Shown one piece after another: positions 3,873 through 22,278 of a stretch of 22,278 nucleotides of DNA; the stretch's first letter is position 1, and each line of letters begins with the position of its first letter. The DNA comes from a virus. The position numbers and the translations under genes were made by a program. A model generated the notes under the pieces. The model ran no database searches. It was not told the origin of the DNA and saw nothing but the letters and a program-made list of their open reading frames with translations. The DNA lies in the IMG/VR virus record IMGVR_UViG_3300023179_004195, positions 1 to 22,278 of that record, one strand, 5' to 3'.

Positions 3873-4643
3873 TTATTTAGACAAAGCACGGAATGTGTTT
3901 TGGATTCCTTGACGCAATCCAACCAGATTAATTGGCGGCAGACCGCTTTCACCACAATACATTTGTAATTGTGTTTCGTTTTCTGTGATGATTGGTACTT
4001 TGTGGCTATCCAATGAGTTAATCATGTTGGCTATAGTCTTTAGTGTGTATTTTTCTTCGTAGCAACAGTTTATATCTTTTTCAAGATTGGTATTATCCAC
4101 ATAATACCTAACTGTAGATATAAAATCTTGCATATAGATAAAATCCATGACTTTGTTGGTGTGAATTATCATTGGCTCTTTTTTAATGTATCTCAACATG
4201 TTTGCTTTAATGAATCTTGTGAGCAACTCATTCTCGTCAAAAACATTAAAAATTCTCAAGTTATAGAAATTTTCTGTGTTTTGTATCGAATCTGCTATCT
4301 CTCGTTTACTATTAGCATATGGAGTATCTCCATGATACATTTCTGCACCAGAACCAAATGATATTAGTTTTTTAAAGTTGTGCCTATTTATACGCAAATT
4401 ATTATACATCGCTAGGTTTTGCTGTAGTACAACAGAATCATCTTCATGCAATCTGCTGCCGCCAGCAATAGCAGTATGCAACACAACATCAAATTGCCTT
4501 TCATTAAACCACTCACAAGTTGCATCGTAACTGCTCAGATTAAAGTTTTGTCTGGTTATTGTAGTTATGTTATATTTGTGTTTAAGACTCTCGTAAAGAC
4601 TTTTTGCCACATATCCATTTCCACCCGTAATTAGCATCTTCAT
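3873..4643 (-). CDS. SDR-type NAD(P)-dependent sugar reductase/epimerase (256 aa)
   Basis: Extended short-chain dehydrogenase of the sugar-nucleotide type. The cofactor motif is TGGNGYVAKSL (6-16), the catalytic region contains ISFGSGAEM (94-102) and YxxxK as YANSK (109-113). At 256 aa it is short for a 4,6-dehydratase and lacks the TDE triad, so a 4-ketoreductase or epimerase role (like GDP-fucose synthase or RmlD) is more likely. As last sugar gene of the cassette it could reduce the keto group left by the dehydratases and ThDP enzyme, as YerF does in yersiniose synthesis; this is inference. The ATG overlaps the HAD gene stop (ATGA); a second ATG two codons on is possible. Strongly AT-rich. 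Confidence 0.8.
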   Translation of the reverse strand: MKMLITGGNGYVAKSLYESLKHKYNITTITRQNFNLSSYDATCEWFNERQFDVVLHTAIAGGSRLHEDDSVVLQQNLAMYNNLRINRHNFKKLISFGSGAEMYHGDTPYANSKREIADSIQNTENFYNLRIFNVFDENELLTRFIKANMLRYIKKEPMIIHTNKVMDFIYMQDFISTVRYYVDNTNLEKDINCCYEEKYTLKTIANMINSLDSHKVPIITENETQLQMYCGESGLPPINLVGLRQGIQNTFRALSK

Positions 4644-5023
4644 AGTGTTTTTAAAAACTCAAGAGTGCGTATCATCGAATCGTTAGTGTTAAATTCCAAA
4701 CACTTGTCGTCTATGTAATAGTCTGCCATAATCTTTGGGCTATATCCAGATATTTTTTTCATTTCTTTCTCTGGAAGATTTTTATTGATAGCATCGAACT
4801 CCAGTCCTTGTTCCTTACACCAATTTACGGCTTCAGTTAAACATTTATATCGTTCGTTGTCTCCTCTATTTGTCCATAGAATTAATTTATGACCATTATT
4901 TCGTAATCCTATAAGGATGGTCATTAACTTTTTCTGTTGCTCTGTCTGTTTTCCAATATTAGGAAATGCGTAGGTGCACAAAGTACCATCAAAATCAATA
5001 GCAATAGTAAATTTATCTTTCAT
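4640..5023 (-). CDS. HAD-superfamily phosphatase-like protein (127 aa)
   Basis: Small HAD-fold hydrolase with motif I DFDGT (10-14), motif II Thr in LILWTNR (47-53), motif III Lys97 and the acidic motif IV in DYYIDDK (101-107). This pattern, with 'LWT-R' and 'IN-N', matches compact cap-less HADs that occur in bacteria and phages; the substrate could be a sugar phosphate or a nucleotide. The start at 5023 is chosen because GGAG lies 7 bases upstream and the conserved strand begins directly after; it overlaps the LdpA-like gene by 11 bases. Two in-frame ATGs further upstream (5035, 5050) lack such a site. In this context removal of a phosphate from a sugar intermediate is a reasonable guess, not shown. 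Confidence 0.8.
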   Translation of the reverse strand: MKDKFTIAIDFDGTLCTYAFPNIGKQTEQQKKLMTILIGLRNNGHKLILWTNRGDNERYKCLTEAVNWCKEQGLEFDAINKNLPEKEMKKISGYSPKIMADYYIDDKCLEFNTNDSMIRTLEFLKTL

Positions 5024-6188
5024 AGGTTTCTCCATAATTATTGTTAACATCTACTAGTTGCTTTGCAATTATGAATGCAGATCGTATATTATCTTCGTTT
5101 TCATAAAAATCATCAGGTGAGATATATTTTTCAATTACATCTCTGGCATAAGTTCCTATAGCAACTCCATTTATTCGTACATCTGTTTTTACAGAAAGTT
5201 CTTTGCTGTAGGAATTTGTCCCACCTGATAAAAGAATAGGAATGTTGTCATTATCATCTATGGATTTGTATATTTTCTTTGATGATATTTTTTCATTACC
5301 CACCGAATCCTTTTCTCGTTTCTTATTGATCTTGGTGTTGAATTTTTTGTTTATTATGTCAGCACAGGCAACTGCTTGTAGAGTAGTATTATAATCATTT
5401 TCGCCACCACTCATTGGCAGACCATCTGCTTGGATTATTACCCTATCTCTAGAAATCTTCTGAACTTGCTCAATACGATGTTCTAATTTCAAATTTCCCA
5501 AATTCAATCTGTCTAAACACATAGAATTGTAATTTGTGGCGTTGATTTCGTTTATCAATTTCCATTCTTCCATTGTGATATCTTCTTCTCCTACAGCAGA
5601 ATGCAATTCAAATAGTTCTGCTCCTGCTCTCATACATCTTGGTAACAATTCTCGTAGTTCTCTGGAATTGTGTCGGTACGAGATGATATCTGTTTTGGGG
5701 CAGATATTGCTACATTTACCACACCCAATACATAAATCTTTGATAACAATTTCTTTTGATTGGTCTTCTTTATCAAAACTACCACCCAAGTCTTTGAAAA
5801 TAGATAAATGTTGTATGAAATCTTTGGGAATAGCATCTGTTGGACATACAGGTATACACAAACTACACCCAATACATTTTGTGGGGTCTATGTATGATTT
5901 TCGTACATGATGATCTCCAGGCATTCCAACACTAACCATAATATAAGGTCTAGTTTTTATGGTAACATTTAATTTATTAGCGTAGTTATATGCTAAGTCA
6001 ATTCCTTCCATAGCAGACTGTACTACTTCTACATTGGCAGAAACATCTAATATAGTAGTTCCTGCTAAGGTATAGATAAATGCTAATTTTTTAACATGAT
6101 GTTTGTTTTCGTTTCCTGCACCACAAATCATCTTAAAGCATTTTTGCTTATGTAAGATTTCTTTTAAAATTTCATATCTGTTGGTCAT
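5013..6188 (-). CDS. LdpA-like iron-sulfur protein with two [4Fe-4S] motifs (391 aa)
   Basis: The N-terminal KMICGAGNENKHHVKKLAFIY-type segment (19-39) and LAGTTILDVSANVEVV (41-56) match what I know of LdpA, the cyanobacterial 'light-dependent period' iron-sulfur protein that feeds redox state into the circadian clock. Two ferredoxin-like clusters follow: C105, C108, C111, C115 and C153, C156, C159, C163. The rest (about 175-391) looks like an alpha/beta barrel-like domain with LPMSGGEND (256-264) and LLSGGT (319-324 region). The protein is 391 aa, versus about 350 aa for LdpA as I recall. Sitting between a ThDP enzyme and a HAD phosphatase, with tight spacing, it is more likely an electron carrier or enzyme of the sugar pathway than a clock part; that is inference. 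AAAGG precedes the ATG. AT-rich. Confidence 0.75.
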   Translation of the reverse strand: MTNRYEILKEILHKQKCFKMICGAGNENKHHVKKLAFIYTLAGTTILDVSANVEVVQSAMEGIDLAYNYANKLNVTIKTRPYIMVSVGMPGDHHVRKSYIDPTKCIGCSLCIPVCPTDAIPKDFIQHLSIFKDLGGSFDKEDQSKEIVIKDLCIGCGKCSNICPKTDIISYRHNSRELRELLPRCMRAGAELFELHSAVGEEDITMEEWKLINEINATNYNSMCLDRLNLGNLKLEHRIEQVQKISRDRVIIQADGLPMSGGENDYNTTLQAVACADIINKKFNTKINKKREKDSVGNEKISSKKIYKSIDDNDNIPILLSGGTNSYSKELSVKTDVRINGVAIGTYARDVIEKYISPDDFYENEDNIRSAFIIAKQLVDVNNNYGETYER

Positions 6189-6200
6189 ATAAAAATACCT

Positions 6201-8000
6201 TTATGAAATATCTACTAGCATTTCTGCCTTTAGTTCTTCTTCTGATAAAAATGGAGCCATGTCGTGTAGTCCTCCTTGAACTCCGTTGCTTTTGATTGCT
6301 TGAGCAGGAAGAACATCTAATGTATGTTTGCTGATAAATTCTACTATCACAGGATTTTTTAACCTGAGTATTTCTGGCATTTTTTCATCTAGTTCTTGGT
6401 TGTTTTGTATTTTAATATAATCCATCTCAAAAGCATTTGCAATCTTAGACAGGTCTGCAAAATAAATACCAGTATTACTGTTGACACCGTATAGATTTCC
6501 TCCAAAAAATTTTGTCTGTGTTTGTTTTAAACTCATGTATCCGTCATTATTGATTACAAAAATCTTTACGGGAATATTGTTCTTTCTTATAACTGCTAAT
6601 TCTTGCATATTGGTATGGAAACTTCCTTCGCCAATACACGCTATGATATTAGATTCTGGTGCTGCGAAATGAACACCAACTACTGCTGGAATGGCATATC
6701 CCATATCACCTTGTGCTGCCTGAACCATGTACTTCTGACCACGCTTCAACTTTAAGTTAGTGGAACAAATATAGCAAGGCTGACCTGCATCTGCAACAAC
6801 AATATCAATAGATTGCATGTTTCTGTTTAGACTCTCAACTATTTCATATAAATTTAAACCATCAGAATCCGAACGATGAGTTTCGTGATCGTAAATGGGC
6901 CACTTATTTTTCCAGTGCAAACACTTTTCCCCCCACCAAGACAGTTCCCAATTTTTGGATTCGTTGTTACATGCAAGTCTCAAAAAATCTTTAACATTTG
7001 CCTGTATAGGCACATCAATTTTTATATTTCCTTTAGACAATTCACTAGAGTCAATGTCTATCATAATTTTTTTACTATGTGGACTGAATGATTTGGTATC
7101 ATATCCCACATGAGTAACATTCATGGAACTGCCTAATATAATCAGACAATCAGAATTTTGTACGGCAAAGTTTGCTGCACGATTCCCTTTTATCCCCCAC
7201 ATTCCTATATTTTGTGGATGCTCGTATTCTATTATATCCCTAGTCAAAAAATTTGTTACAAAAGGAATTTTATACTTGTCGATAAATCTTCTAAACTCAT
7301 CAACACTATCACTGTGGCTGATTCCCGCTCCTGCTATTGCAACAGGTCTTTTGGAACGATAAACAACATCCATCAAAACATTTTCTATAGTGTGTTTTTT
7401 AGATTTTTCTAAAGAAATAGCATCAGGATTTTCTTCTGGAGAATAAATTTCATATTTTTCTGGCATGGGTGAGGTTTGTATGTTGGCTGGTATGTCCAAC
7501 CAAACAGGACCAAATCTACCAGTAGATGCAATGTGAATGGCTTTTTCTAATTCATAAGCAACCCTATTTACATCTTCAACAAGAACAGAATACTTAGTCA
7601 TAGTCTTGACGGTATTAACAATATCATGGTCTTGAATACCATATTTTCTCAAACTTATTCCTCTAGTCTTATTGATGTAAGAGGTTATATCTGTTAGTTT
7701 TGTGTTCCCGCTCAGAAATAAAACAGGAACACTTTCTTGCCAAGCGTTTAAACAACTTGTTAGTGCATTTGTACCACCACAACCAGTGGTAACATTTACA
7801 ACAGATATTTTTTTGTTGGTTCTGGCAGAACCAACTGCTGCATGACCTGCACCCTGTTCGTGATGAAAAGGTATGTAACAAATATTTGGGTTTTTAAAAA
7901 ATCCATCGTTTAATCCGGAACAACCACCTCCAACCATACCATAGACATGACTAACTCCCTCTTTGACAAGCCTTTCACTGATGTAATCGCAAACACGCAT
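6201..8000 (-). CDS. ThDP-dependent enzyme, acetolactate-synthase/YerE class (599 aa)
   Basis: Full-length three-domain thiamine diphosphate enzyme. The Pyr domain (about 1-170) carries the catalytic Glu48 in HHEQGAGHAAVG; the central domain (about 200-345) includes GAGIS; the PP domain (about 380-560) has the metal/ThDP motif GEGSF (457-461) and INNDGYMS (483-490). Here GEG replaces the more common GDG. The family decarboxylates pyruvate or another 2-oxo acid and adds the resulting unit to an acceptor. In sugar clusters the relative YerE adds an acetyl unit to a CDP-3,6-dideoxy-4-hexulose to form the branched sugar yersiniose; the nearby E1 homologue makes that role attractive here. Ordinary acetolactate synthase is less likely in this setting. 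AAGGAG is six bases before the ATG. Confidence 0.85.
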   Translation of the reverse strand: MRVCDYISERLVKEGVSHVYGMVGGGCSGLNDGFFKNPNICYIPFHHEQGAGHAAVGSARTNKKISVVNVTTGCGGTNALTSCLNAWQESVPVLFLSGNTKLTDITSYINKTRGISLRKYGIQDHDIVNTVKTMTKYSVLVEDVNRVAYELEKAIHIASTGRFGPVWLDIPANIQTSPMPEKYEIYSPEENPDAISLEKSKKHTIENVLMDVVYRSKRPVAIAGAGISHSDSVDEFRRFIDKYKIPFVTNFLTRDIIEYEHPQNIGMWGIKGNRAANFAVQNSDCLIILGSSMNVTHVGYDTKSFSPHSKKIMIDIDSSELSKGNIKIDVPIQANVKDFLRLACNNESKNWELSWWGEKCLHWKNKWPIYDHETHRSDSDGLNLYEIVESLNRNMQSIDIVVADAGQPCYICSTNLKLKRGQKYMVQAAQGDMGYAIPAVVGVHFAAPESNIIACIGEGSFHTNMQELAVIRKNNIPVKIFVINNDGYMSLKQTQTKFFGGNLYGVNSNTGIYFADLSKIANAFEMDYIKIQNNQELDEKMPEILRLKNPVIVEFISKHTLDVLPAQAIKSNGVQGGLHDMAPFLSEEELKAEMLVDIS

Positions 8001-8014
8001 TTTTTACTCCTTGC

Positions 8015-8776
8015 TTACATTCTACCAAGTATAGCGGCTTTTCTCTTTTTATCAGAAGAACATATTTTCTCATAGATTGCCAGTCGTCTCTCTAGATTCG
8101 ACAACTCAAATTTTAAGGCATGATCTATCGAACCTTCCTGAATGAACTTATCAACAGGTATTACCACTTTTCGTGTCTCTACATGATCTATCAAATTATA
8201 CAATTCTTCATCTGACAATAAAGATTCTACCGTGGCTTTGCTTACATTACCACCCATAGTTACTTTTAGTCCTCTAGACTTTGCTTCGTTAGCAACCTTT
8301 TTTACCATAGAGATGGTTTTTTCAGACTCTACACTACTACCACCGTAAGACGCGGTTAGATCATTTCTACCAATGGTAACTTCTGTCAAAAGAGTGCCCG
8401 CTTTGATTATACTGACTATATTTTCGACAGCAGTAACCGTCTCAATGGTAACGCCAACATGTTCAAAATGATTTGGAGGAACCATGTTGATAAACTTTTG
8501 CATTGCAAAAGATGATTCAATCATTGGAACAACTACAGAAGTTATCCCAATATTTACCAAATATTCCAAATTTGTTTTTGCTTCACTACCACCGATCTTA
8601 ATTAGATAATTAAGATCGTTTTTTGCAGCAAGTATTGCTTCTCTTGCAACTTCTATTTGGCACAACCCCTCTGCTTCCATCTCGCCTTTCAGAGAGACAA
8701 ATCCAAATACCTTTTTACCCTCTGCTAATAGTTCGTTTATATTGTTTTCTGTGTTAATCATTGATGCGTTTTCCAT
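8015..8776 (-). CDS. HpcH/HpaI aldolase / citrate-lyase-like TIM-barrel protein (253 aa)
   Basis: Matches the HpcH/HpaI (phosphoenolpyruvate/pyruvate-binding) superfamily: VVVPMIES (81-88), IETVTAVENI (111-120) and TIGRNDLTASYG (134-145) correspond to the family's metal- and substrate-binding loops; the acidic residues E112 and D139 are the probable metal ligands. Such enzymes cleave or form C-C bonds with pyruvate, oxaloacetate or acetyl-CoA partners. It lies immediately before the ThDP gene, 14 bases apart, so it may supply or trap the 2-oxo acid used by that enzyme. This coupling is inference. Start: GAGGA lies upstream of ATG 8776 at a long spacing; ATG 8761 is an alternative. Contains an internal hairpin (8593-8624). 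Confidence 0.78.
   Translation of the reverse strand: MENASMINTENNINELLAEGKKVFGFVSLKGEMEAEGLCQIEVAREAILAAKNDLNYLIKIGGSEAKTNLEYLVNIGITSVVVPMIESSFAMQKFINMVPPNHFEHVGVTIETVTAVENIVSIIKAGTLLTEVTIGRNDLTASYGGSSVESEKTISMVKKVANEAKSRGLKVTMGGNVSKATVESLLSDEELYNLIDHVETRKVVIPVDKFIQEGSIDHALKFELSNLERRLAIYEKICSSDKKRKAAILGRM
8593..8624 (+). terminator. Possible rho-independent terminator on the antisense strand, inside a CDS
   Basis: Bases 8593-8603 and 8608-8618 form a perfect 11-bp stem with the 4-base loop AGAT, followed on the plus strand by six T (8619-8624). In the minus (coding) direction the stem is preceded by A's and not followed by a T-run. So it would act only on antisense transcripts of the aldolase-like gene. 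The stem is AT-rich, so chance within an AT-rich coding region is a serious alternative. Confidence 0.3.
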
Positions 8777-8803: not shown

Positions 8804-9754
8804 TTACCATACAAAAGTATTCTTGTAGTATTCTATGATACTACTCAATTCACCATCAAACTGTTTTTCTGGTTGCCATCCAAGAGTTCTGAGTTTGCTG
8901 TCATCTAAAGCGTATCGTACATCTTGTCCGGGTCTATTGCAAGAGAAATCTATGTATTTCTCTACATCTTTTTCATCTATGTTGTTTGTGGCTAGTATTT
9001 TCTTTACCGTATCCATATTGCTCTGTTCGTAACCACCGCATATGTTGTATATCTCGTTGGTCACTCCACACTCAATAATTTTAATCACAGCAGAAGCGGT
9101 GTCAGCAGCATGAAGCCAATTTCTGATTGGAGAACCTCCGTTGTGAAGCGGTATCTTTCTTCCAAGATGAAGATACTTGCAAACCTTTGGTATGAGTTTT
9201 TCTACATACTGCCCAATCCCGTAGTTGTTTGTTGGTCGTACAATAACATATGGAATAGCATATGTTCTTGCCCATGCCAACACCAACATATCTGCTGCTG
9301 CTTTGGTTGCAGCATATGGATTTGATGGTTTCAGCAAATCGCTCTCTGTGTGTGCTCCATTTGCAATATCTCCATACACCTCGTCTGTAGAAAAATGAAG
9401 TAGAATTGGCTTTTTCCCACTCTCCTGTCTGAAGTTCTTTATGAGTTCAAGAATATTATGAACTCCATTGATATTTGAATGCACGAAATCATCGCTATTT
9501 GCTATGGAGTTTCCTACATGGGTTTCCGCTGCTGTATTGATAATATAATCACAATCATACAAAAACTTCAAGTCGTTAATGTCGCAGTGCACAAAAGAGA
9601 AGTTTTTATGCTTGTTGAATTCTTCCAGTAATTCGTCGTTGGCAGCATAAGTGATCTTGTCCACACCTTTTACATACCACCCTTTTTCAAGGCATTGACG
9701 AGTCACATAAGAACCGATAAACCCCAAACAACCTGTCACATATACTATTTTCAC
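8804..9754 (-). CDS. RmlB-type NDP-sugar 4,6-dehydratase, second copy (316 aa)
   Basis: Extended SDR of the dTDP/CDP-glucose 4,6-dehydratase type. Cofactor motif TGCLGFIGS (7-15), VDKITYAAN (31-39), the dehydratase triad TDE in FSTDEVYGD (121-129), YxxxK as Y147/K151 and the C-terminal RPGQDVRYALD typical of RmlB. It should convert an NDP-hexose to the 4-keto-6-deoxy form, or act on a related substrate. Start: GTG at 9754, which forms a GTGA overlap with the methyltransferase stop; AAGGAG lies five bases upstream, deciding the start. It is clearly diverged from the other RmlB homologue of this cassette (10968-11987), so the two may use different substrates or one may be an epimerase/decarboxylase-like relative. 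Confidence 0.87.
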   Translation of the reverse strand: MKIVYVTGCLGFIGSYVTRQCLEKGWYVKGVDKITYAANDELLEEFNKHKNFSFVHCDINDLKFLYDCDYIINTAAETHVGNSIANSDDFVHSNINGVHNILELIKNFRQESGKKPILLHFSTDEVYGDIANGAHTESDLLKPSNPYAATKAAADMLVLAWARTYAIPYVIVRPTNNYGIGQYVEKLIPKVCKYLHLGRKIPLHNGGSPIRNWLHAADTASAVIKIIECGVTNEIYNICGGYEQSNMDTVKKILATNNIDEKDVEKYIDFSCNRPGQDVRYALDDSKLRTLGWQPEKQFDGELSSIIEYYKNTFVW

Positions 9755-10971
9755 AAATTCTCCTTCACGATAACACTTGGAAAATATTTCAAATACAAAT
9801 CCGAACTATTCGGTCGTACTTTCTTTATCCTGCCCACAATCTCATCAAAAAAGTTCCAAGCCAATGGAACAAAACAAATTAGAGAGTCTCTATAGTTATT
9901 TAGGTGTTCTATGCTGTGGATTGGAATGGAAGAACCGGGAGTAAACATTCCTTGCTTCATTGGGTTGTCGTCTATAATGAAATCTAATTCACAACCAGAA
10001 AAATTTAAGAATGTATTTCCTTTTGCCGGTGAGCCGTATCCAATAATCTTGTATCCGTCCTTCCGGATGGAATCTATTTTTGCTTTTGTATCTACGGATG
10101 TTTGTATTGCGGCTTTGGCGTACTTGGAATAGATTTCGTCTCCGTATAGACCATCATTCTTTTCCTGTTGAATTGCCAAGTCCACACTATCTGATTGTTT
10201 GTTGTTTGGAGATATCACGAATATGTAACTGTTCCCGTGTATTGGATGCACCAACACATCAACCAAACACATTCCGCTCCTCTCACACAAAACCCTCATG
10301 GAGTGAACAGAATAATACGAATAGTGCTCGTGATAGATGGTGTCAAATTCACCATGCTTTATCATGTCAGCCTGTGATGTGGTTATGAAGAGTAAGCCAT
10401 TCTCACTCATAAGTGTCTTGCACTTCTGCAAAAATTGATGCTGATTGTAATTGTGAGAAAACGCATTCTGACACACTATGGCATCGAATTTTACAGAAAA
10501 CTCAACATGGTCAAGATTAAAGTAATCGCAAACCACATTGTGTTTTTTTGAACTGATGGGGTGAAGATTTTCTGCTGGATCTACCCCATATGTGGAAAAC
10601 CCAATAGACTTAAAATAGTCCAACTGAGAACCATCATTGCAACCAATGTCTAGAACATTAGCATGTTCTACTCCAAGCCTATGCTTTACCATTTTTGAAA
10701 ACCAATCAAAATATGCTAATTGGGTGTTTGATGTTCCTGAAACATACAGATAGTTTTTGAACAACTCATTAGGATTCACCATGTGACTCAACTGTAGATG
10801 GTGACATGAAACACATCTGTTCAATATCAAAGGATAATAGGCTTCCTGTTCGTTTTGTGTTTTCTTGAAGGAATTTGCTAGTGGCTGCTCTTTCAAATCT
10901 AACACTTGTATCAGGTTTGACGAGCCACAAGCAATACAAGAATCAATAGGTACACAGGAAGATGTAATCAT
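9751..10971 (-). CDS. TylC3/EvaC-type sugar C-methyltransferase (406 aa)
   Basis: Three-part SAM-dependent C-methyltransferase acting on NDP-4-keto sugars. N-terminal zinc module: C12, C15, C53, C56. SAM-binding motif VLDIGCNDG (106-114). The signature FDTIYHEHYSYYS (209-221) carries the Tyr/His/Glu residues used in catalysis in TylC3 and TcaB9 relatives. The C-terminal alpha/beta domain (about 290-400) contains IIGYGSPAKGNTFLNF, also typical. It would add a methyl group, usually at C3 of a 4-keto-deoxy sugar, making a branched-chain sugar. Start: ATG at 10971 overlaps the upstream stop (ATGA); a GTG at 10983 is in frame but has no ribosome site. It is flanked on both sides by RmlB-type dehydratases that can make its substrate. 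Confidence 0.88.
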   Translation of the reverse strand: MITSSCVPIDSCIACGSSNLIQVLDLKEQPLANSFKKTQNEQEAYYPLILNRCVSCHHLQLSHMVNPNELFKNYLYVSGTSNTQLAYFDWFSKMVKHRLGVEHANVLDIGCNDGSQLDYFKSIGFSTYGVDPAENLHPISSKKHNVVCDYFNLDHVEFSVKFDAIVCQNAFSHNYNQHQFLQKCKTLMSENGLLFITTSQADMIKHGEFDTIYHEHYSYYSVHSMRVLCERSGMCLVDVLVHPIHGNSYIFVISPNNKQSDSVDLAIQQEKNDGLYGDEIYSKYAKAAIQTSVDTKAKIDSIRKDGYKIIGYGSPAKGNTFLNFSGCELDFIIDDNPMKQGMFTPGSSIPIHSIEHLNNYRDSLICFVPLAWNFFDEIVGRIKKVRPNSSDLYLKYFPSVIVKENL

Positions 10972-11987
10972 AGTTGCAACCACTTGGGATTAGCAAGATA
11001 CCAATCCGTGACTTGTTTGATGCGTTCAGACAACGAAACTGTTGGTTCCCATCCCAAAGACCGCATCAATTCTCCTGATAGAGAATATCGCATATCGTGT
11101 CCGGGTCTAGTGCTGTGAAAATCAACCATTTCATAGTTCAGTTCTTTGCCCTGTGCTTCTGCAATCATTTTTGCAAGTGAAAGGTTATCTACCTCTTGTT
11201 TTCCAACTATGTTGAACTTTGAACACTTTGCCCCTCCAAAATCTGGCTCGGACTTGATATCATTTTTCAACAAGAACAAAAGAGCATTAGCAACATCTGT
11301 TGCGTGGATATAGAATCTACTACCAGCAAAAGTCTTGCTTGGATCGGAATGAATGGTGATAAGTTCTCCGTTTTTGATTCTACGAATGCACAAAGGAATG
11401 AATTTTTCAGGAGTTTGTCTTTCTCCGAACACATTCATTGTATGGGTAATCTTCATTGGCATCTTATAGGTGTTCTCATAAGCCACACACAACTCTTCCG
11501 CTGCTGCCTTGGAAGCAGAATACGGATTGGTTGAATTGTAGCGATCTCTTTCCTTATAGTCAACACCCTTTGGAGCAGAACCAAATATTTCATCTGTGCT
11601 GAAGTACAGGAAATTTTCCAAGTAGTCTAATCTTCTAGCATACTCTAATAGATGAGCAGTGCCCAAGATGTTGTCGTTTATAAATTCCATCGGGTGTGTT
11701 ATCGACCGATCAACATGAGAACCAGCAGCCAAATGTAGTATGGTGTCACACTTTCCAATGAAGTTAGAAACCAGTGGATTCACTTCTGCCTTCAGATCGT
11801 GGAATACTACCTTTATTCGATTTTTATTTTCTGGTTGCTTTTGAATCAGTTCGTCTATTCTGTTCAAATTACCAGAATAATCCAAACGATCCAAAACAAC
11901 AATCTCGCAATCAGTATTTTGTAAGAAATAATCAATTACATGATGACCAATAAAACCTGCTCCACCTGTAACTAATACTTTTTTCAT
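10968..11987 (-). CDS. RmlB-type NDP-glucose 4,6-dehydratase, first copy (339 aa)
   Basis: Extended SDR with TGGAGFIGHH (7-16), LDRLDYSGNLNRI (32-44, the RmlB substrate/cofactor signature), HLAAGSHVDRSI (85-96), catalytic TDE (131-133) in STDEIFG, YSASK (156-160) and RPGHDMRYSL near the C-terminus. Length equals normal RmlB. The product would be an NDP-4-keto-6-deoxyhexose, the common precursor for the E1-like dehydrase and the C-methyltransferase. Whether dTDP- or CDP-glucose is used cannot be told from motifs. No nucleotidylyltransferase (RmlA or RfbF type) is present in the window, so the NDP-sugar must come from the host or from genes outside. AGAGG lies seven bases before the ATG. Confidence 0.9.
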   Translation of the reverse strand: MKKVLVTGGAGFIGHHVIDYFLQNTDCEIVVLDRLDYSGNLNRIDELIQKQPENKNRIKVVFHDLKAEVNPLVSNFIGKCDTILHLAAGSHVDRSITHPMEFINDNILGTAHLLEYARRLDYLENFLYFSTDEIFGSAPKGVDYKERDRYNSTNPYSASKAAAEELCVAYENTYKMPMKITHTMNVFGERQTPEKFIPLCIRRIKNGELITIHSDPSKTFAGSRFYIHATDVANALLFLLKNDIKSEPDFGGAKCSKFNIVGKQEVDNLSLAKMIAEAQGKELNYEMVDFHSTRPGHDMRYSLSGELMRSLGWEPTVSLSERIKQVTDWYLANPKWLQL

Positions 11988-13481: not shown

Positions 13482-14801
13482 TTACTGTCCTTTTAGTTTT
13501 GCAAAAAAACTATCCAACACTTTTTCAATGTAATCCAAATGCTCATCTGTTATCACAGGACTTGTTCCCAAGAAGAATGTGTCTGTCGTTATTTTTCGTG
13601 CATTTGGAAAATCAGAGATGACCTTGCTCGTATCCATCATGCCTGCATATGCGGGCTGAAGCATTATGTTTCCCGCAAAATACGGTCGAGTTTGAATCTT
13701 GTGGTTTTCAAAATGCTCCACAATATCTATCCGTTTGAACGGGCTTCCGTCCTTGATCGTTACAGCGAAGGCAAACCAAGCAGGATCAGAACCTTTGGTT
13801 GCTTTTGGCAAGATGAAATAATCTTCATACATTGCAAATATGTTACACAGGCGTGCATGATTGTGCTTTCTCATCTCAATGATTCTTGGAAGTTTCTTGA
13901 GTTGAGCAAGACCCATTCCTGCTTGCAAATCTGTTGGCTTCAAGTTATAACCAATCTCATCGTACACATATTTGTGATCGAAAATCTCATCAGGTAATGC
14001 AGGCAACCAATTAGAAAACCTATTCTTGCAAGTTCCATTCTTGAGAAGATTTGCCTTTTGCCCAACACAATAGCATCCTCTTCCCCATTCCCTAAAACTT
14101 CGTGCAACGGTTTCCTGTTGGTGTGTCTTGCAAGCAACAAAGCCACCCTCACCCATTGTGATGTGGTGAGCAGGATAGAATGAGCATGATGCAAATTCTC
14201 CATAACTTCCCAAAGGCTGTCCTTTGTAAGAAGAACCCAACGCATCACAGCAGTCTTCCAAAAAGATCAAATCGTATTTCTTAACAATTTCCATCAGCCT
14301 GTCCATGTTTGGAGGATTACCCAACACATGAGCAAAGGTGATAACCTTGCATCCCTGCTTTGCCTTTTCTTCCACTTGATCCAAATTAAGATTCAAAGTG
14401 TCTAGATCAATATCCACAAACTCTGGAGTGAATCCAACTTGAAATATTGGGTTTATTGTTGTTGGAAATCCTGCAATGGGTGTAATAACCTTTGTGCCTT
14501 TAGGCAGATTATACAGTCGCTTGGAGGCAAGAGCAGACATCATTATGAGATTAGAACTGCTGCCGCTATTTGTAAGAATACCAAACTGCTTTCCCATAAG
14601 TTTGGGAAACAGAGTTTCAAATCTGATACCGTTTTCTCCAAGCACCAGCCAACCCTTCAACAACGCTTTGGCAGATTCAGTATACTCTTCTGAATCAAAA
14701 TACGGGCCAGCATATTGAACCCAATCAACACCAGCAGTCCATTGCTTGGTGGATGTTTTCTTGTCTGCGTATTCTGCTATTAGTTTTAGAATTTCTTCCA
14801 T
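13482..14801 (-). CDS. E1-type PMP/[2Fe-2S] NDP-4-keto-6-deoxyhexose 3-dehydrase (439 aa)
   Basis: DegT/DnrJ/EryC1-fold protein of the RfbH/DdhC/AscC (E1) branch. These enzymes use PMP and a [2Fe-2S] cluster to remove the 3-hydroxyl of CDP-4-keto-6-deoxyglucose on the way to 3,6-dideoxysugars. Diagnostic is SFYPAHHITMGEGG (residues 207-220): a His replaces the PLP-binding Lys of ordinary aminotransferases. The E1 cluster spacing C-X57-C-X1-C is exact (C185, C243, C245), but the fourth Cys (C258) follows after 12 residues, not 7, because of a five-residue insertion. Length (439 aa) equals E1 (about 437 aa) when started at ATG 14801, which overlaps the upstream stop as TAATG. A second reductase (E3) is needed and is not seen here. 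Confidence 0.9.
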   Translation of the reverse strand: MEEILKLIAEYADKKTSTKQWTAGVDWVQYAGPYFDSEEYTESAKALLKGWLVLGENGIRFETLFPKLMGKQFGILTNSGSSSNLIMMSALASKRLYNLPKGTKVITPIAGFPTTINPIFQVGFTPEFVDIDLDTLNLNLDQVEEKAKQGCKVITFAHVLGNPPNMDRLMEIVKKYDLIFLEDCCDALGSSYKGQPLGSYGEFASCSFYPAHHITMGEGGFVACKTHQQETVARSFREWGRGCYCVGQKANLLKNGTCKNRFSNWLPALPDEIFDHKYVYDEIGYNLKPTDLQAGMGLAQLKKLPRIIEMRKHNHARLCNIFAMYEDYFILPKATKGSDPAWFAFAVTIKDGSPFKRIDIVEHFENHKIQTRPYFAGNIMLQPAYAGMMDTSKVISDFPNARKITTDTFFLGTSPVITDEHLDYIEKVLDSFFAKLKGQ

Positions 14802-15634
14802 TAGTGTATTCCCATACCCCAATCATTCAAATTTGGGATATTGTACTCTTTGATGCTGTCTTTGATGAATTTATATTTGTAACTTGATTTGATGTCTTGT
14901 TCTGAATACACATCATACCTGATCTTCAACGGAAAGTCAAATTCAGAATATTCCCATTGGAAATTAGCAACAGATTCATCATATGCTGTAACTGGTACTG
15001 TTTCTGTTTTATATTTGTTTCTAGTAATATAATCTGTTATCTTCCAAAAGTATTGCTTTACCGCAACTGTTGGTTTATCCAACCATTGTGCGTGTGCAAT
15101 AAACAGATGCGGAACATCAATTACTCCGTGTTTTCCGGGATATGGGATGTGTTCAGAGTGCATCTGTGCAGGTCTAAATATTGCTCTTTTACTATATGAT
15201 CCCACCCTATCTTTGTAATTAGTCTTCCAAGGCCCATCCACTCTGATTTGATTTTTATCTGTGTACTGTATCCATCTTAAATAAATTATCGTGTCTTTGT
15301 TATTTTCTAGTATACTTTCCAATTCTTTTTTTTGAATATTGCCATCCAAATATTCATCCGCATCTAAACATATGATATTTCCAGAATGCTTTAGTGCCTC
15401 GTCATATAATCTCTGCCTTGTGTCCGATTCGATATACAACTCATTACTTGTTTGATTACTTGGTATAACGCTTAAGATATTGAATTTTTCTTTGTTCTCC
15501 ATAAGGTACTCGTAAGTACCATCAGTCGATCTGTCGTCCATAAAAACAAAAGCATCTGCATACTTTTGCCAATGCGGCATCATCTCTTTAATGAGAAACA
15601 ACTCGTTTCGTGTCATTGTTATTTGAACAATCAT
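14801..15634 (-). CDS. GT2-like glycosyltransferase (Glyco_tranf_2_4 type, 277 aa)
   Basis: GT-A fold enzyme with N-terminal IVQITMTRNE (2-11), the nucleotide-binding FMDDRSTDGT (31-40) and the metal-binding DADEYL (91-96). It resembles the 'Glyco_tranf_2_4' group found in capsule and LPS loci. Conserved late residues such as HSEHIPYPGKHG (about 158-169) fit the acceptor side. Start at 15634: it follows the upstream stop directly and has GAAAAGAAG just before the ATG; an in-frame ATG at 15676 lies inside the preceding gene and would add 14 residues not typical of the family. Donor and acceptor unknown. Confidence 0.82.
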   Translation of the reverse strand: MIVQITMTRNELFLIKEMMPHWQKYADAFVFMDDRSTDGTYEYLMENKEKFNILSVIPSNQTSNELYIESDTRQRLYDEALKHSGNIICLDADEYLDGNIQKKELESILENNKDTIIYLRWIQYTDKNQIRVDGPWKTNYKDRVGSYSKRAIFRPAQMHSEHIPYPGKHGVIDVPHLFIAHAQWLDKPTVAVKQYFWKITDYITRNKYKTETVPVTAYDESVANFQWEYSEFDFPLKIRYDVYSEQDIKSSYKYKFIKDSIKEYNIPNLNDWGMGIH

Positions 15635-16843: not shown

Positions 16844-17230
16844 TTACGGCTTTCCACCCTTGGCAGTAAGTGCAACGATTTCTGAAATTTGTTGGGGTGA
16901 CAACACAAGCAGGGCTTCTCGTGCCTTCTTGGCAGAGAACCCGTAGTACTCAATCAGGGCTTGCACCCGCTCGTCACTCTCCCGCTTGAGCCATTTGGAA
17001 AACCGTTTACGCTTTCGCACCGCTCCCCGAAGAAAGTCAAAGTGCATCTTGGGGTCAATGTGGGCACGGGTATTCATCTCGTTTACCGCAAACAGCGTAT
17101 CAGGAAAATACGAAAGGCACCTACCCACTACAAACGGTGGGTACGATGGCTTGCCCCATTCAGGGGTGTCCATCAACGGCTCCTTGGTTTCGTTGATGGC
17201 TTTCAAATAATCAGTCAGACCGTGGCTCAC
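16844..17230 (-). CDS. 62: Clamp loader small subunit gp62 (128 aa)
   Basis: Partner of gp44 in the ATP-driven loader of the gp45 clamp. The block FVVGRCLSYFPDTLFAVNEM (residues 33-52) followed by a HFDFLRGAVRKRKRFSKWLK-like helix (63-82) aligns with T4 gp62 (FMVENALSQFPE...; KRYGKWAK). At 128 aa it is shorter than T4 gp62 (187 aa); N- and C-terminal parts are reduced. Start: GTG at 17230 overlaps the gp44 stop (GTGA) with GGAG about 11 bases upstream; a TTG at 17266 would extend it by 12 residues but is less likely. Translational coupling to gp44 fits their shared complex, as in T4. Confidence 0.87.
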   Translation of the reverse strand: MSHGLTDYLKAINETKEPLMDTPEWGKPSYPPFVVGRCLSYFPDTLFAVNEMNTRAHIDPKMHFDFLRGAVRKRKRFSKWLKRESDERVQALIEYYGFSAKKAREALLVLSPQQISEIVALTAKGGKP

Positions 17231-18180
17231 TTGAATTTGCACTCCATCATTAATTGCACCATGCAAGCGGTCAGATTGATCTCTGCGTCTGCTGCGAACG
17301 CTGCCTTGTATTGGTAGTCTGCAAGAATCAGAATGGCTTGAGGAATGGAACCGTTTTCCATGTTCTCGTACAGGGCATCGTAAACGCTTCGGAACAGGCG
17401 AGTAGAGTCATTATCTAAATTCTCTACCACCCACTTGCGAACACCTGCAAAGTCCTTGCCCTTCATGCACTTGACCAATTCCTTGATCTGTACATCGGCA
17501 ATAGTGTTCAGAATACCAACATCAATGACCCCACCCGCAGAGTACCGCTGAAGTTCGTTCAGGGTACGGCGGAAGTCGGGGAAATGCTTGCCGACCAGTT
17601 GTGCCACCACCTTCTGATCGTATTGGATGCCCTCACGCTTCAAAATATCTTCGGCTCGCTTCAGGAAACGAACTGCCAGATTAGGCTTTTCCTTGTTGGG
17701 AATACGAAAATCAATACAGGTGCATCGGGAGTGCAGCGGCTCAATCACCCTATTCTTGAAATTGCAAGTCAGGATGAAACGGCAGTTGGCTGCAAACTCT
17801 TCAATAAAGCCGCGAAGGGCGGGTTGAGTGGACTGTGCATTGGAATAGTCAAACTCGTCAAGAATGACCACCTTCTTTGCCCCATCTGTCAGGGACACAG
17901 TAGAAGCAAACTGACGAATCTTGGTGCGGAGGGTATCAATATTACCGTCCTCCGAACAGTTAACCATCAACCAATCACAACCAAGATCGTTGCACAGAGC
18001 CTTTGCAACAGAAGTCTTGCCACAGCCTGCCCCTCCTGAAAGGAGCAAGTTCTGTGGTTCCTTCCGCTGCACCATTTGGGTAAACGCATCCTGTGTTTCT
18101 TGTGGCAGGATGCACTCGTCCACGCTTTGCGGACGATAACGCTCAACCCAAAGACCCTTCACGGCTTCATTTATTTTCAT
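17227..18180 (-). CDS. 44: Clamp loader ATPase subunit gp44 (317 aa)
   Basis: AAA+ ATPase that opens the sliding clamp and loads it on primed DNA. Motifs: WVERYRPQSVDE (11-22, the clamp-loader N-terminal box), Walker A GGAGCGKTS (49-57), Walker B VVILDEFD (104-111, same DEFD as T4), sensor 1 FILTCNFKNR (135-144) and the arginine-finger SRC (151-153). Length matches T4 gp44 (319 aa). AAGGTGAT directly before the ATG; 8 bases after the gp45 stop. Followed by overlapping gp62. Confidence 0.96.
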   Translation of the reverse strand: MKINEAVKGLWVERYRPQSVDECILPQETQDAFTQMVQRKEPQNLLLSGGAGCGKTSVAKALCNDLGCDWLMVNCSEDGNIDTLRTKIRQFASTVSLTDGAKKVVILDEFDYSNAQSTQPALRGFIEEFAANCRFILTCNFKNRVIEPLHSRCTCIDFRIPNKEKPNLAVRFLKRAEDILKREGIQYDQKVVAQLVGKHFPDFRRTLNELQRYSAGGVIDVGILNTIADVQIKELVKCMKGKDFAGVRKWVVENLDNDSTRLFRSVYDALYENMENGSIPQAILILADYQYKAAFAADAEINLTACMVQLMMECKFK

Positions 18181-18188
18181 ATCACCTT

Positions 18189-18896
18189 TCAGGCAGAATA
18201 AGTGGAATCAGAGTGATTAGCAATCCAATAAGTTACAGGCTCGTTCTTGCACGAGAACATGCTGATGCCCTTTTCAGAAATCTGAACACGATAGTCATTG
18301 GACAGAATCTTGAGATTATCCACATCCAAAATAAACTCAAAATCTGCGTCCCCTTCGTATTCTGCAACAACCAAAGAGTACTGATTAGAAGTTACATCGT
18401 CCTTGTCTCGTGCAACCACCTGAATGTGCTTACGGTCTTCGGTGGGTTCCACGCAGAGGTGCTGCACTTGTAGAACTGCTGCTGCCTTGAGAAGTTCAGA
18501 GAAGTCCTTGGCAGGCAGATCAAATTCCACAACTGGATTAGGCATGGATACCCGCTTGTTGGTGTGGTTCACCAACTTCTCGTCGCAGTAGTAATACTTC
18601 ATTGCAGACTTGCCGTTCTTGATTCCGATATAGTTCTGCTCAAATGTGAAATCAGGGTCTTTGAACAGGCTAACGGTTCCCAAGAACTTGTTCAGATCGT
18701 AAATACAGAACTGCTTGGGGAAAGTTTCGTCCACCTTGGCTTCCACCATGATGGTCTTGGTATTGGACACGGTGCTGATGGTATTACCCGTCTTTACCAT
18801 AATACCGGGATTAATAGCCGAGAAATTCTTGAGAATATCAAGTGTTCGCTTGCTGATCTTCATGGTGTCGCTCTTACTCTTCGTTGCTGTAGTCAT
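18189..18896 (-). CDS. 45: Sliding clamp gp45 (235 aa)
   Basis: Trimeric DNA polymerase processivity factor; in T4 it also activates late transcription. The call rests on KISKRTLDILKNFSAINPGI (from residue 13), the tandem clamp-like strands and on position directly upstream of gp44 and gp62; length is near T4 gp45 (228 aa). Start at ATG 18896 is chosen because AAAGG stands nine bases upstream and the length fits; it overlaps the end of the 59-aa ORF by 23 bases. The open frame extends upstream to 19019, but that part reads through the small ORF in another frame and is unlike clamps. ATG 18863 is another candidate with a weaker site. Confidence 0.9.
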   Translation of the reverse strand: MTTATKSKSDTMKISKRTLDILKNFSAINPGIMVKTGNTISTVSNTKTIMVEAKVDETFPKQFCIYDLNKFLGTVSLFKDPDFTFEQNYIGIKNGKSAMKYYYCDEKLVNHTNKRVSMPNPVVEFDLPAKDFSELLKAAAVLQVQHLCVEPTEDRKHIQVVARDKDDVTSNQYSLVVAEYEGDADFEFILDVDNLKILSNDYRVQISEKGISMFSCKNEPVTYWIANHSDSTYSA

Positions 18897-19053
18897 CGTA
18901 ATGTCCCTTTCTTCCATAATTGTAATCGTTTGCCCAATCACGCAACTGCTGTCGATCTTGGCTTTTCTTTCCCCGCCGCTTCTTGTTGCCAGCACTCTTG
19001 CGAGCCTTTTTGGCTGCACGGTCGTAATCGTCCCAACTTGGCTTGCTCTCCAT
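18874..19053 (-). CDS. Small highly charged protein between rnh and gene 45 (59 aa)
   Basis: Unrecognised 59-aa protein with a very basic middle (KKARKSAGNKKRRGKKSQDR, 14-33) and an acidic, Tyr-rich tail (DYNYGRKGHYDDYSNEE). Its ATG overlaps the stop of the nuclease gene (TGATG), with GGAG seven bases upstream; the end overlaps the clamp start. The basic region suggests nucleic acid or DNA-bound-protein contact. T4 carries the small RNA-polymerase-binding RpbA near gene 45, but I see no similarity to it. Confidence 0.65.
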   Translation of the reverse strand: MESKPSWDDYDRAAKKARKSAGNKKRRGKKSQDRQQLRDWANDYNYGRKGHYDDYSNEE

Positions 19054-19907
19054 CAAAAGTCTCCTATATCTGAAATTAGATTCTTTAGTCCCTTGCTAAT
19101 CATGTAGTTCAAAATCTTTGAACGATTAGCCTTAAACGGTTTGTTCCACTCCTCCATGATACGCTCTTGGTATTCTGTAGGAATGCACAGATGCGAGATG
19201 AGAGTCTCGTTTCTGTTCCAATTGGCTGCAACAGCATCAGGAACCTTGCCGCTTTCAGCCCAAGACTTTTCCAATTCCTCTAACCGCTTACGGGTAATAG
19301 GCTTTTGACGCTTGCCGTCTGTGACAAAACAATCGTCTTCAGACAGCACATTCGGAACACCGTCTGAAGAATCGCCCTTCACAATGTGTTCAAACAAGAA
19401 AGTTTTTGGATTGTCAATCGTGACAAACTTCTTCTGCATGGGCGAGTACTGCTGCACTCTATTGTAGATTTGCAGTTGCCCAAAATCTTTGTCTCCACTC
19501 AGAATCATAACAGGCTCCTGCTCATGCAGGTTTCGTGCAAGCACAGCAATCACATCGTCGGCTTCGCACCCTCTCACGGATATGTTCTTGTACGGGAACA
19601 CCTCACGAACCTCTGTTCTGATGGTGTCCATAATTTCATAAAACCGCTTCCACATGTCGGGATTGTCTTTGCGAGCCTCACGACGAGAAGCCTTGTAGTG
19701 TGGGAAAAACTTGCGTCGCCACGAGTACTCACCGCCCTGCCCTTCTTGGCATAGCACGAGTTCGCCGTACTCCTTGCCGAACCGCTTGCGGTACATGCGA
19801 TAGGTATTCAACACCATATGACGAATCAGCGACTCATCGGTGTAGTCCAAGTCCCGTTGTGCAAACAGGGACGACATAATCACTTGGCTGTTGTCTACGA
19901 GAATCAT
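19053..19907 (-). CDS. rnh: Phage RNase H / 5'-3' flap exonuclease (T4 Rnh family, 284 aa)
   Basis: FEN-1 family nuclease that removes RNA primers on the lagging strand. Active-site residues visible: D5 (VDNSQ), the YSWRRKFFPHYKASRR helix (61-76), E115/D117/D118 (GCEADDVIAVL), D139/D141 (SGDKDFGQLQ) and D179/D182 (VKGDSSDGVPN, the helix-hairpin-helix region). Length fits T4 RNase H (305 aa). One oddity: before the WRR motif most members have an Asp in a D-G-x-x-YWR context; here the segment is CQEGQGGEYSWRR, so Glu55 or Glu60 would have to replace it. Start overlaps the upstream stop (ATGA). Confidence 0.9.
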   Translation of the reverse strand: MILVDNSQVIMSSLFAQRDLDYTDESLIRHMVLNTYRMYRKRFGKEYGELVLCQEGQGGEYSWRRKFFPHYKASRREARKDNPDMWKRFYEIMDTIRTEVREVFPYKNISVRGCEADDVIAVLARNLHEQEPVMILSGDKDFGQLQIYNRVQQYSPMQKKFVTIDNPKTFLFEHIVKGDSSDGVPNVLSEDDCFVTDGKRQKPITRKRLEELEKSWAESGKVPDAVAANWNRNETLISHLCIPTEYQERIMEEWNKPFKANRSKILNYMISKGLKNLISDIGDF

Positions 19908-20998
19908 AGAGTCTTTAGCAACAAGCAGTGCTTGTTGATCCTTCCTGTTGGAGCCGCAGTCTTGGTCTTGGCATCTTCAAGTGCCTTGAGCAGTCCTGCT
20001 GTTTTCTTCAACCAGTCCTCCCACTTACGCACAGTTTTTTCGTATGACTTGGCGGTATCCCATCCTGTAATGGTAGACCCCTTGACACTCAACCCTGCTT
20101 TGGGTTCAGCGGCAACGAATACTGTAGCCTTGTGGTTCTTGGTGTTGAACACGAGCAGTCCTTGAGCACCAATAATACCACGAGGATCAACAGACTGCAA
20201 GCCGCTCTCGCTCTTTTGGCAATACTTTAAACGCTTCACCAATTTTTCAGGGTTCACCTTGCGGGGTTTGCGTGGCTTACGGGCGGCACTCATGCCACCA
20301 ATTTTTGAATCCACAGCCTCCACCGCTTCGTTGAATATTTCAAGTAACCGCTTCTGTGCAGGTCTTTTCAAATATGAATACCCCTCAACCAAATCGGGAT
20401 CAGTCTTGGAGTACGCTGCTTGCATTTCCTGTGCAACAGTTTGCAGCCTTTCCTTGACAATGAGTGCCGTTGGACGGGTCATGGTCTTGGAAGCGATCCA
20501 CGGGGCTATAGACGGCTTATACCGCTTGCTGTCAACCCCTGCGAAGGCTTCGTCAATCAGGGGTTCTAGTTCCACAAGGGTGTCATTAGCCTTGGCACGA
20601 AGGCGGTCTTGAATATTTGGAGCGTCCTCGTCCGCAGGTGCCGCTGCACGGGCTTCTGCCAACAGGTCAGTAATGTATTTTTGAATTGTCTCTGCCTGTT
20701 CAGGTGTCCACTGGTAGCCACGAGACTCCATACGGCAGTACGGACACACCAAGCGTAGGGTTCCCTTGGACACACGAGACACCAGTTTGGCATCGTCTTT
20801 GCGTCCCTTGCTCTTGAACCACTCGCTGATCCACTCCCGTGCATCAGACGGCGAGAACGACTGCCTGTAGAAGTACATGCCACGATCCAATGCCTTGGCA
20901 CGGGTTTCGTCGCTTGCAAAGTCTTCAGGAGTGAACAGCGGTTCGTCTCCACCGTTCAGGATTCGCTGTACTCGTTCCTTGGATAGTTTCTTGCTCAT
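19904..20998 (-). CDS. Conserved-looking hypothetical protein between gp46 and rnh (364 aa)
   Basis: I cannot name this protein. The N-terminal half is helical and charged, with LSKERVQRILNGG (5-17 region), ALDRGMYFYRQSF and SDAREWISEWFKSKGRKDDA; one CxxC (in LVCPYCRMES) could be half of a zinc site or a lone pair. The middle (110-240) is Ala-rich helical, then a basic KPRKPRKVNPEKLVKRLKY segment, and the C-terminal third (255-345) looks like a small beta domain (GIIGAQGLLVFNTKNHKATV). Located inside the replication block and coupled to gp46 by an ATGA overlap (start 20998; ATG 21007 is three codons earlier), so a DNA-metabolism role is likely but unproven. Confidence 0.75.
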   Translation of the reverse strand: MSKKLSKERVQRILNGGDEPLFTPEDFASDETRAKALDRGMYFYRQSFSPSDAREWISEWFKSKGRKDDAKLVSRVSKGTLRLVCPYCRMESRGYQWTPEQAETIQKYITDLLAEARAAAPADEDAPNIQDRLRAKANDTLVELEPLIDEAFAGVDSKRYKPSIAPWIASKTMTRPTALIVKERLQTVAQEMQAAYSKTDPDLVEGYSYLKRPAQKRLLEIFNEAVEAVDSKIGGMSAARKPRKPRKVNPEKLVKRLKYCQKSESGLQSVDPRGIIGAQGLLVFNTKNHKATVFVAAEPKAGLSVKGSTITGWDTAKSYEKTVRKWEDWLKKTAGLLKALEDAKTKTAAPTGRINKHCLLLKTL

Positions 20999-22278
20999 GG
21001 TGTGCATAGACGGCTAAAGTTGTTCACCTTCTTGAATGTAACTATGTTGGCAAATTTGTCAAGCAGTTGGTCAGATTTATGACTAATTACGAATACATTA
21101 TTTGCTGCACCCATATTTTGGAGAATCTTTATGACTTCTTCTGTGCCTACTCCGTCCAGAGACGAATCAAATACTTCATCCAAAATAAGCAGATTGGTGT
21201 TGGCTGAATTCTTCATTTTGGCAATGTCACGCCACGCCAATAGTAGCGACACATCTATTCGTAGTTTCTCGCCTTCGCTAAAGTTTTCGTAGGAGAACTC
21301 GTCGCGGTGGCGGCTCTTGATGATTTCCACAAAATCCTCGTTCAGCGTGAACTGTGCAAAGAAATCCATAGACACCAAGTACTTGTTGATAATTTTATTC
21401 AGGGCAGGAATGTACTTCTTGATAATCTTTCTCTTGATGCCGCTGTCCTTGAGCAGCACGGTGGCAATCTCCATTGTGTGGAGGTCTTCCACCACACCTT
21501 TACGCTCGTCTTCCTTTTCACCCTGCTGCTGCTGAATGCCTTCAAGTGCTGTACGCTCCGCAGCAATACTGTCTCGTTCTGCAATCGTCTTGGTTTGCAG
21601 ATCACGCAACTGCTTGATGTACTTCTTGGAAGACGCAATAGCAGAATCGGTTTTAGCCACTTCAGTCTGCTTGGCGTTCATGGCTTGTGATTCTTTTACC
21701 AAAGCATCCAAGTGTGCCTTTTCTTTGCCGATCATTTCTTCAATCTTATTGATAGCCGTTTGCAGTTCGTCTTGGCGAGCAGTCTTCTTGGCAATCATGT
21801 CATCACGGAAAGACTGTGGTAGATCGTGCTTGCACACAGGGCAGTCTTCGTTCTTCTGATAGAAGTCACTCTCTTCCTGTGCCTTCTTGATGTTGCTGCT
21901 CATCTGCTTCTTGAGTGTAACCATTTGATTCAGCGAATCCCGCTTGGCATCAATCGCAGCAGTATTGGCAGTCATGGCATTTATCTCTGTCTGCAACTCG
22001 TCCTTTCGCTTCAGGAGTTCGTCAAGCGTTTCCTGCTCTTCGGATTCCTGCGAACGATACGATTGGAGTTGTGAATCAGACTTCTGTTCAATCTTGCCAA
22101 TCAAATCCTTTTTGTGTTCCACCTTGAGTTTCAGGGTACTGATTTCTGCTTCCACTCCACGCAGAGTTTCCTTTGCGTCCTGTAGACGGGACTTCAGCAC
22201 ATCATTCATCTTGGAGAACACATCAATATCCAACAGGTTTTCCACGATGCCTCGTCTGTCTCCCGCAGGTAGACGCAT
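20995..22278 (-). CDS. 46: Recombination endonuclease subunit gp46 (SbcC/Rad50-like), N-terminus cut by window edge
   Basis: Partial SMC-like ATPase of the gp46/gp47 complex that resects DNA ends for recombination-dependent replication. The visible 427 residues contain the end of the N-terminal ATPase lobe (RLPAGDRRGIVENLLDIDVF, 2-21), a long coiled coil (about 25-270) broken by the zinc hook CPVC (146-149), the ABC signature FSEGEK (333-338), Walker B LLILDEVFD (363-371), D-loop SLDG and H-loop SHK (399-401). Walker A must lie beyond base 22278; the ATG at the very edge is almost certainly internal. The downstream gene overlaps its TGA. Confidence 0.95.
   Translation of the reverse strand: MRLPAGDRRGIVENLLDIDVFSKMNDVLKSRLQDAKETLRGVEAEISTLKLKVEHKKDLIGKIEQKSDSQLQSYRSQESEEQETLDELLKRKDELQTEINAMTANTAAIDAKRDSLNQMVTLKKQMSSNIKKAQEESDFYQKNEDCPVCKHDLPQSFRDDMIAKKTARQDELQTAINKIEEMIGKEKAHLDALVKESQAMNAKQTEVAKTDSAIASSKKYIKQLRDLQTKTIAERDSIAAERTALEGIQQQQGEKEDERKGVVEDLHTMEIATVLLKDSGIKRKIIKKYIPALNKIINKYLVSMDFFAQFTLNEDFVEIIKSRHRDEFSYENFSEGEKLRIDVSLLLAWRDIAKMKNSANTNLLILDEVFDSSLDGVGTEEVIKILQNMGAANNVFVISHKSDQLLDKFANIVTFKKVNNFSRLCTP

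Follow-up and report, generated by a model that had tools for sequence, protein, structure and literature searches.

On balance, the virus record IMGVR_UViG_3300023179_004195 probably encodes an erwiniose/yersiniose-type route to a nucleotide-activated, C4-branched 3,6-dideoxyhexose, in which a block of genes for an aldolase, an LdpA-like protein and a HAD phosphatase is predicted to provide the 2-oxo-acid donor. The computed part of this model comprises what the genes are, that their key residues are intact and that they are associated in a conserved manner. What is new is the conserved aldolase-LdpA-HAD block with its alternative partners, the LdpA-like enzyme being a new part of the pathway. 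An earlier note on this DNA had proposed a phage-borne, yersiniose-like route to a branched deoxysugar, and that proposal is supported in outline by an RfbH/E1-type dehydrase, a 4,6-dehydratase-like SDR, a YerE-like ThDP enzyme and a reductase-like SDR.

The record is 22,278 bases long (its whole length is referred to here as the window) and T4-like in character. A minus-strand gene block at ~3.9-16.3 kb has a GC content of 33-40%, compared to 45-53% in both flanks, and contains mainly sugar enzymes and glycosyltransferase-like proteins. A gene at 37-783, recognised by eye only, resembles a UV damage endonuclease. The relevant features are as follows.

3873..4643, minus strand: RmlD/epimerase-type SDR, assigned by family matches
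4640..5050 (likelier start: 4640-5023), minus strand: small BT0820-like HAD phosphatase, overlapping the LdpA-like gene
5013..6188, minus strand: LdpA-like TIM-barrel protein with two [4Fe-4S] ferredoxin motifs (C105-C115 and C153-C163)
6201..8000, minus strand: YerE-like ThDP carboligase with all three TPP domains, catalytic Glu48 and a GEGS...NNDGY ThDP motif
8015..8776, minus strand: HpcH/HpaI-fold aldolase of a distinct subfamily (Pfam HpcH_HpaI), with K30, K60, E112, GR-x-D139 and E200-x-R202
8804..9754, minus strand: NDP-hexose 4,6-dehydratase-like SDR (TIGR01181, 304 bits, below the cutoff of 365)
9751..10983, minus strand: sugar C-methyltransferase (Pfam Methyltransf_13/23/14)
10968..11987, minus strand: second RmlB-like NDP-sugar 4,6-dehydratase-like SDR (TIGR01181, 258 bits, below the cutoff of 365)
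13482..14822, minus strand: RfbH/E1-type 3-dehydrase of the PMP and [2Fe-2S] type, with conserved His and Cys (NF011936 RfbH, over cutoff)
17227-22278: T4-like core genes (sliding clamp, clamp loader, RNase H-like exonuclease, SbcC-like recombination protein)

The earlier note had described a tight run of four genes at 5013-8776. This interval contains three, for the HpcH-fold aldolase, the ThDP enzyme and the LdpA-like Fe-S protein, which are consecutive on the minus strand with gaps of 12-14 bp; the HAD gene lies almost entirely outside and overlaps only the LdpA-like stop. SDR genes were located on either side of the run, at 8804-9754 and 3873-4643; the note had mentioned one, a downstream reductase. 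The C-methyltransferase and the second RmlB-like SDR (9751-11987) are accessory genes, the latter outside the conserved block, and may serve another, C-methylated sugar. Both are missing from the closest sister loci, L005 and L006.

Single-sequence searches with the aldolase (phage records) and with the LdpA-like protein (phage and plasmid records) returned nothing, whereas profile scans of viral contigs were successful. A full-length LdpA-like gene was identified in 24 contigs, some of them near-duplicates, so that the following counts are not independent events. A small HAD gene directly follows the LdpA-like gene in 23 of the 24, usually overlapping it, while the HAD of the remaining contig (L031) is larger. 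Of the 24 contigs, 22 contain the aldolase, which abuts the LdpA-like gene in 21; the ThDP gene lies between the two in L006, as in the window. Since some two dozen further viral contigs have the same genes side by side, the run is not a chance arrangement. The neighbourhood described by the earlier note thus recurs in phages; bacterial O-antigen loci have the aldolase with ThDP or Rfb genes, but without LdpA. Two damaged genes, a ThDP gene broken into two reading frames (L013, 5444-7202) and an LdpA-like gene shortened to 83 aa (L032, 8001-8252), are decaying copies or assembly errors.

Co-occurrence was assessed on 32 viral contigs carrying the aldolase or the LdpA-like gene, 17 with a ThDP gene and 15 without. 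RfbH was found in 15/17 contigs with ThDP compared to 1/15 without (p=7e-6), and the 4,6-dehydratase-like SDR in 15/17 compared to 0/15. PseF-like cytidylyltransferases had the opposite distribution (0/17 compared to 9/15, p=2e-4), and neither PseF nor KdsB was detected in any of the 17 ThDP-type loci, in which a reductase-like SDR of the RmlD/epimerase type recurs. Loci without ThDP encode PseF-like enzymes, often together with MptE-like proteins, or canonical HpaI with a KdsB over cutoff (L023 and L029). The partners of the block are exclusive: either ThDP enzyme, RfbH and SDR, or CMP-sugar cytidylyltransferases (PseF-like, KdsB), never both. SAR11 carries the block in 2 of 297 sampled genomes (L001 and L063). 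As for the CMP-KDO and CMP-pseudaminic acid routes, other phages and SAR11 have a KdsB or PseF-like gene directly adjoining the block, whereas the window has neither. The LdpA-like member does fall outside the known pathway, as the earlier note had held, for it belongs to a block also found without ThDP or RfbH beside CMP-sugar cytidylyltransferases.

The E1-type dehydrase that the note had reported upstream was confirmed as RfbH, with 466.7 bits against the curated NF011936 cutoff of 423. In E1, a His takes the place of the PLP lysine, and four Cys form the [2Fe-2S] site. The window protein has His at this position (AHHITMGEGG) and the Cys cluster C192-X57-C250-X-C252-X12-C265, the last spacing being X7 in a known E1; the His and the four Cys are invariant in four phage homologues. 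RfbH/E1 enzymes require electrons. A motif scan for an E3-type reductase found no plant-type ferredoxin motif in any fetched phage locus, and the window has neither RfbF nor RfbG. The E3 ferredoxin reductase function could come from a host enzyme, and the missing RfbF would likewise be host-supplied. The window shares the 4,6-dehydratase, RfbH/E1, YerE-like ThDP enzyme and SDR reductase with the erwiniose and yersiniose A systems (ErwE, YerE), which branch a CDP-3,6-dideoxy-4-ketohexose. It differs from them in being phage-borne, in having an RmlB-like dehydratase (8804..9754, closer to dTDP- than to CDP-dehydratases) in place of RfbG, in lacking RfbF and E3, and in the linkage of this aldolase subfamily, an LdpA-like protein and a HAD to the pathway genes.

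The best PDB match of the ThDP enzyme was 8rph (283.9 bits), which is JanthE, a YerE-like ketone carboligase (PMC12188165); the next was an acetolactate synthase (AHAS, 204.7 bits). The enzyme retains HHEQ, which includes catalytic Glu48, and NNDGY, and has GEGS where GDGS is usual (E for D). On the scores and the NNDGY motif, a reading as an acetolactate synthase was rejected. In the tree, the window enzyme grouped with those of L006 and L015 (100/100) and JanthE with other phage ThDP enzymes (100/99); AHAS was a single long-branched outgroup, and JanthE stays with the phage enzymes. As judged from sequence, the ThDP enzyme is closest to YerE-like enzymes. It is most likely a carboligase predicted, by analogy with these, to add the acyl unit of a 2-oxo acid to a ketone sugar.

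The aldolase scored 30.8 bits against Pfam HpcH_HpaI (cutoff 25), and its predicted structure (pLDDT 94) had HpcH/HpaI proteins as best matches; a PDB sequence search with the single protein gave one chance match only. The predicted structures agree with the earlier note on the fold and give a TIM barrel for the LdpA-like protein, but the aldolase active site departs from HpaI. Profile alignment to canonical HpaI proteins of related phages (96.8%) matched E112 and D139 with the Glu and Asp metal ligands of HpaI, whereas the catalytic His was absent (A or D in that column) and the pyruvate-binding Arg was replaced by an invariant Lys60. Compared to the class II pyruvate aldolases HpaI and YfaU, the fold and metal-ligand columns are alike, and the window subfamily has in addition an invariant K30 and an ETR motif. 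With neither the catalytic His nor the pyruvate Arg of HpaI in place, the enzyme cannot be assumed to perform aldol chemistry on pyruvate, and its substrate may be a different one.

Aldolases of the same subfamily, unaccompanied by LdpA, were found in a small number of Pseudomonadota genomes (5/289 and 8/399 in two samples, the SAR11 genome counted), mostly in O-antigen-type loci. The gene orders are RfbF-RfbG-RfbH-aldolase-HAD-ThDP-SDR in L115 and RfbF-RfbG-...-ThDP-aldolase in L112; L125 and L126 combine RfbF/G/H with aldolase and ThDP, and L122-L124 combine aldolase, a reductase-like SDR and a C-methyltransferase with ThDP or RfbH. The aldolase is a regular partner of sugar-branching pathways, contrary to the earlier note, which had considered it alien to them. 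The aldolases of the window, L005 and L006 grouped with that of L115 (100/99), apart from those of other phages. From this clustering, a bacterial aldolase of sugar-branching origin seems to have taken the place of the earlier one in this phage lineage, with LdpA and HAD retained. L015 has two aldolases of different clades (2047-2850 and 7246-8001), one bacterial-type and one LdpA-associated. In two alphaproteobacterial genomes, a subfamily aldolase lies directly 3' of kdtA- and lpxK-like genes (L113, 9533-10327; L114, 9510-10304). This context raised the idea of a KdsA replacement, which was ruled out since both genomes have KdsA over cutoff.

The LdpA-like protein scored above the Pfam cutoffs for LdpA_Fe-S-bd, LdpA_C and DUF561 (PF25160 and PF12617 included), and below that of the LdpA equivalog NF045992 (138 bits compared to 450). 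Its predicted TIM barrel (pLDDT 86) matched aldolase-type barrels best, with modest TM scores, leaving a reading as a dihydropyrimidine-dehydrogenase-like FMN enzyme unsupported. A role as a simple ferredoxin for RfbH is disfavoured by the contexts without RfbH. The HAD is only a relative of the BT0820 family (91 bits compared to a curated cutoff of 165).

In the proposed route, the RmlB-like SDR would generate a 4-keto-6-deoxy sugar nucleotide, from which RfbH/E1, given its strong family membership, would remove the 3-OH to yield a 3,6-dideoxy-4-ketohexose. The recurrent context suggests that the HpcH-fold aldolase, the LdpA-like Fe-S TIM-barrel enzyme and the HAD phosphatase may make a functionalised 2-oxo acid, a redox step being our preferred guess for the LdpA-like protein. 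The YerE-like ThDP enzyme would decarboxylate this acid and transfer the acyl unit to C4, as for ErwE and YerE, and the RmlD-like SDR, the probable ketoreductase of the branch with a YerF-like role, would reduce the branch ketone. By the same logic, the user of the 2-oxo acid in ThDP-free loci would be a CMP-ulosonate synthetase. The product would most likely serve to glycosylate the surface polysaccharide of the infected host. If so, the synthesis of a sugar from one of the least common groups in bacteria is almost fully encoded by lytic phages, which probably use it to alter the coat of the host they infect.

ErwE uses 4-hydroxy-2-oxo acids as donors with CDP-4-keto-3,6-dideoxyglucose (PMC12247030). 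Such acids are aldol products, and we infer from its context beside a YerE-like enzyme and RfbH that the aldolase most plausibly supplies the donor acid. That the block, where ThDP is missing, sits with PseF-like enzymes or KdsB, also users of 2-oxo acids, was counted for this reading. The replaced His and Arg, the missing RfbF, RfbG and E3, the dTDP-like SDR and the placement of the L115 ThDP enzyme in a different clade from that of the window count against it. Alternatively, the ThDP enzyme might use host pyruvate, the preferred donor of YerE, to form a yersiniose-type sugar, while a separate product of aldolase, LdpA and HAD, such as an ulosonic acid, goes into a different residue of that glycan. 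The presence of the block without ThDP or RfbH in many phages and SAR11 fits this view. However, since the ThDP-type loci lack PseF and KdsB (0/17), they would offer no means of activating a free ulosonic acid, and the bacterial aldolase directly adjoins ThDP and RfbH genes without LdpA; we regard a separate product as unlikely, though worth keeping in mind.

The LdpA-like protein could instead act mainly as electron donor to RfbH/E1, in place of the missing E3, and have no part in donor synthesis. The electron requirement of RfbH/E1, the lack of an E3 motif in the phage loci and the two ferredoxin-type 4Fe-4S motifs would all accord with such a role. It is nevertheless improbable, as the protein remains paired with aldolase and HAD where RfbH is absent, bacterial RfbH loci lack it, and polar barrel residues beyond the Fe-S clusters are conserved. 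It is very improbable that the cassette is host DNA which was captured recently, is not under selection and plays no part in infection: its low GC content relative to the flanks would suit a recent capture, but many distinct phage contigs have the set complete, with overlapping genes and conserved active-site residues.

A broader reading of the aldolase-LdpA-HAD block as a donor source, which we advance tentatively as possible but short of probable, is that it is an undescribed module making a 3-deoxy-2-oxo acid, routed either to CMP-activation (PseF-like, KdsB) or to ThDP branching, with the LdpA-like protein as a redox TIM-barrel enzyme. LdpA, the cyanobacterial clock protein, would then have a metabolic enzyme as its ancestor or would itself still be one. 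LdpA is described as a redox sensor linked to the clock, and how it affects the abundance of CikA has yet to be worked out (PMC13421787); the module would give a testable handle on the biochemistry of a family so far known only in that capacity. The window protein resembles cyanobacterial LdpA over its full length, including both 4Fe-4S motifs and core residues, and differs in its sugar-operon context and in the GAGNED and C224-D226-R227 (C-x-D-R) motifs. Phage proteins and LdpA from photosynthetic genomes have in common the eight cluster Cys, K19, D48, D92, H94, K97, E194, H196, Q253 and D255. Among the homologues L128-L132 and L089-L106, the phage-type polar barrel residues are kept in LdpA of photosynthetic-sized cyanobacterial genomes, hinting, at the level of sequence, at a present or past active site in the clock protein. 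Since it recurs beside sugar-acid genes, the LdpA-like protein looks like a metabolic enzyme, and a metabolic ancestry of LdpA is a reasonable hypothesis. Within the cyanobacterial phylum, LdpA homologues were found beside HAD, an HMGL-type aldolase, an aldolase of the window's subfamily, or HAD-KdsB-HMGL. One such locus (L089, 13782-15506) has an FAD-linked oxidase-like gene, another possible redox partner, after LdpA-HAD-KdsB-HMGL.
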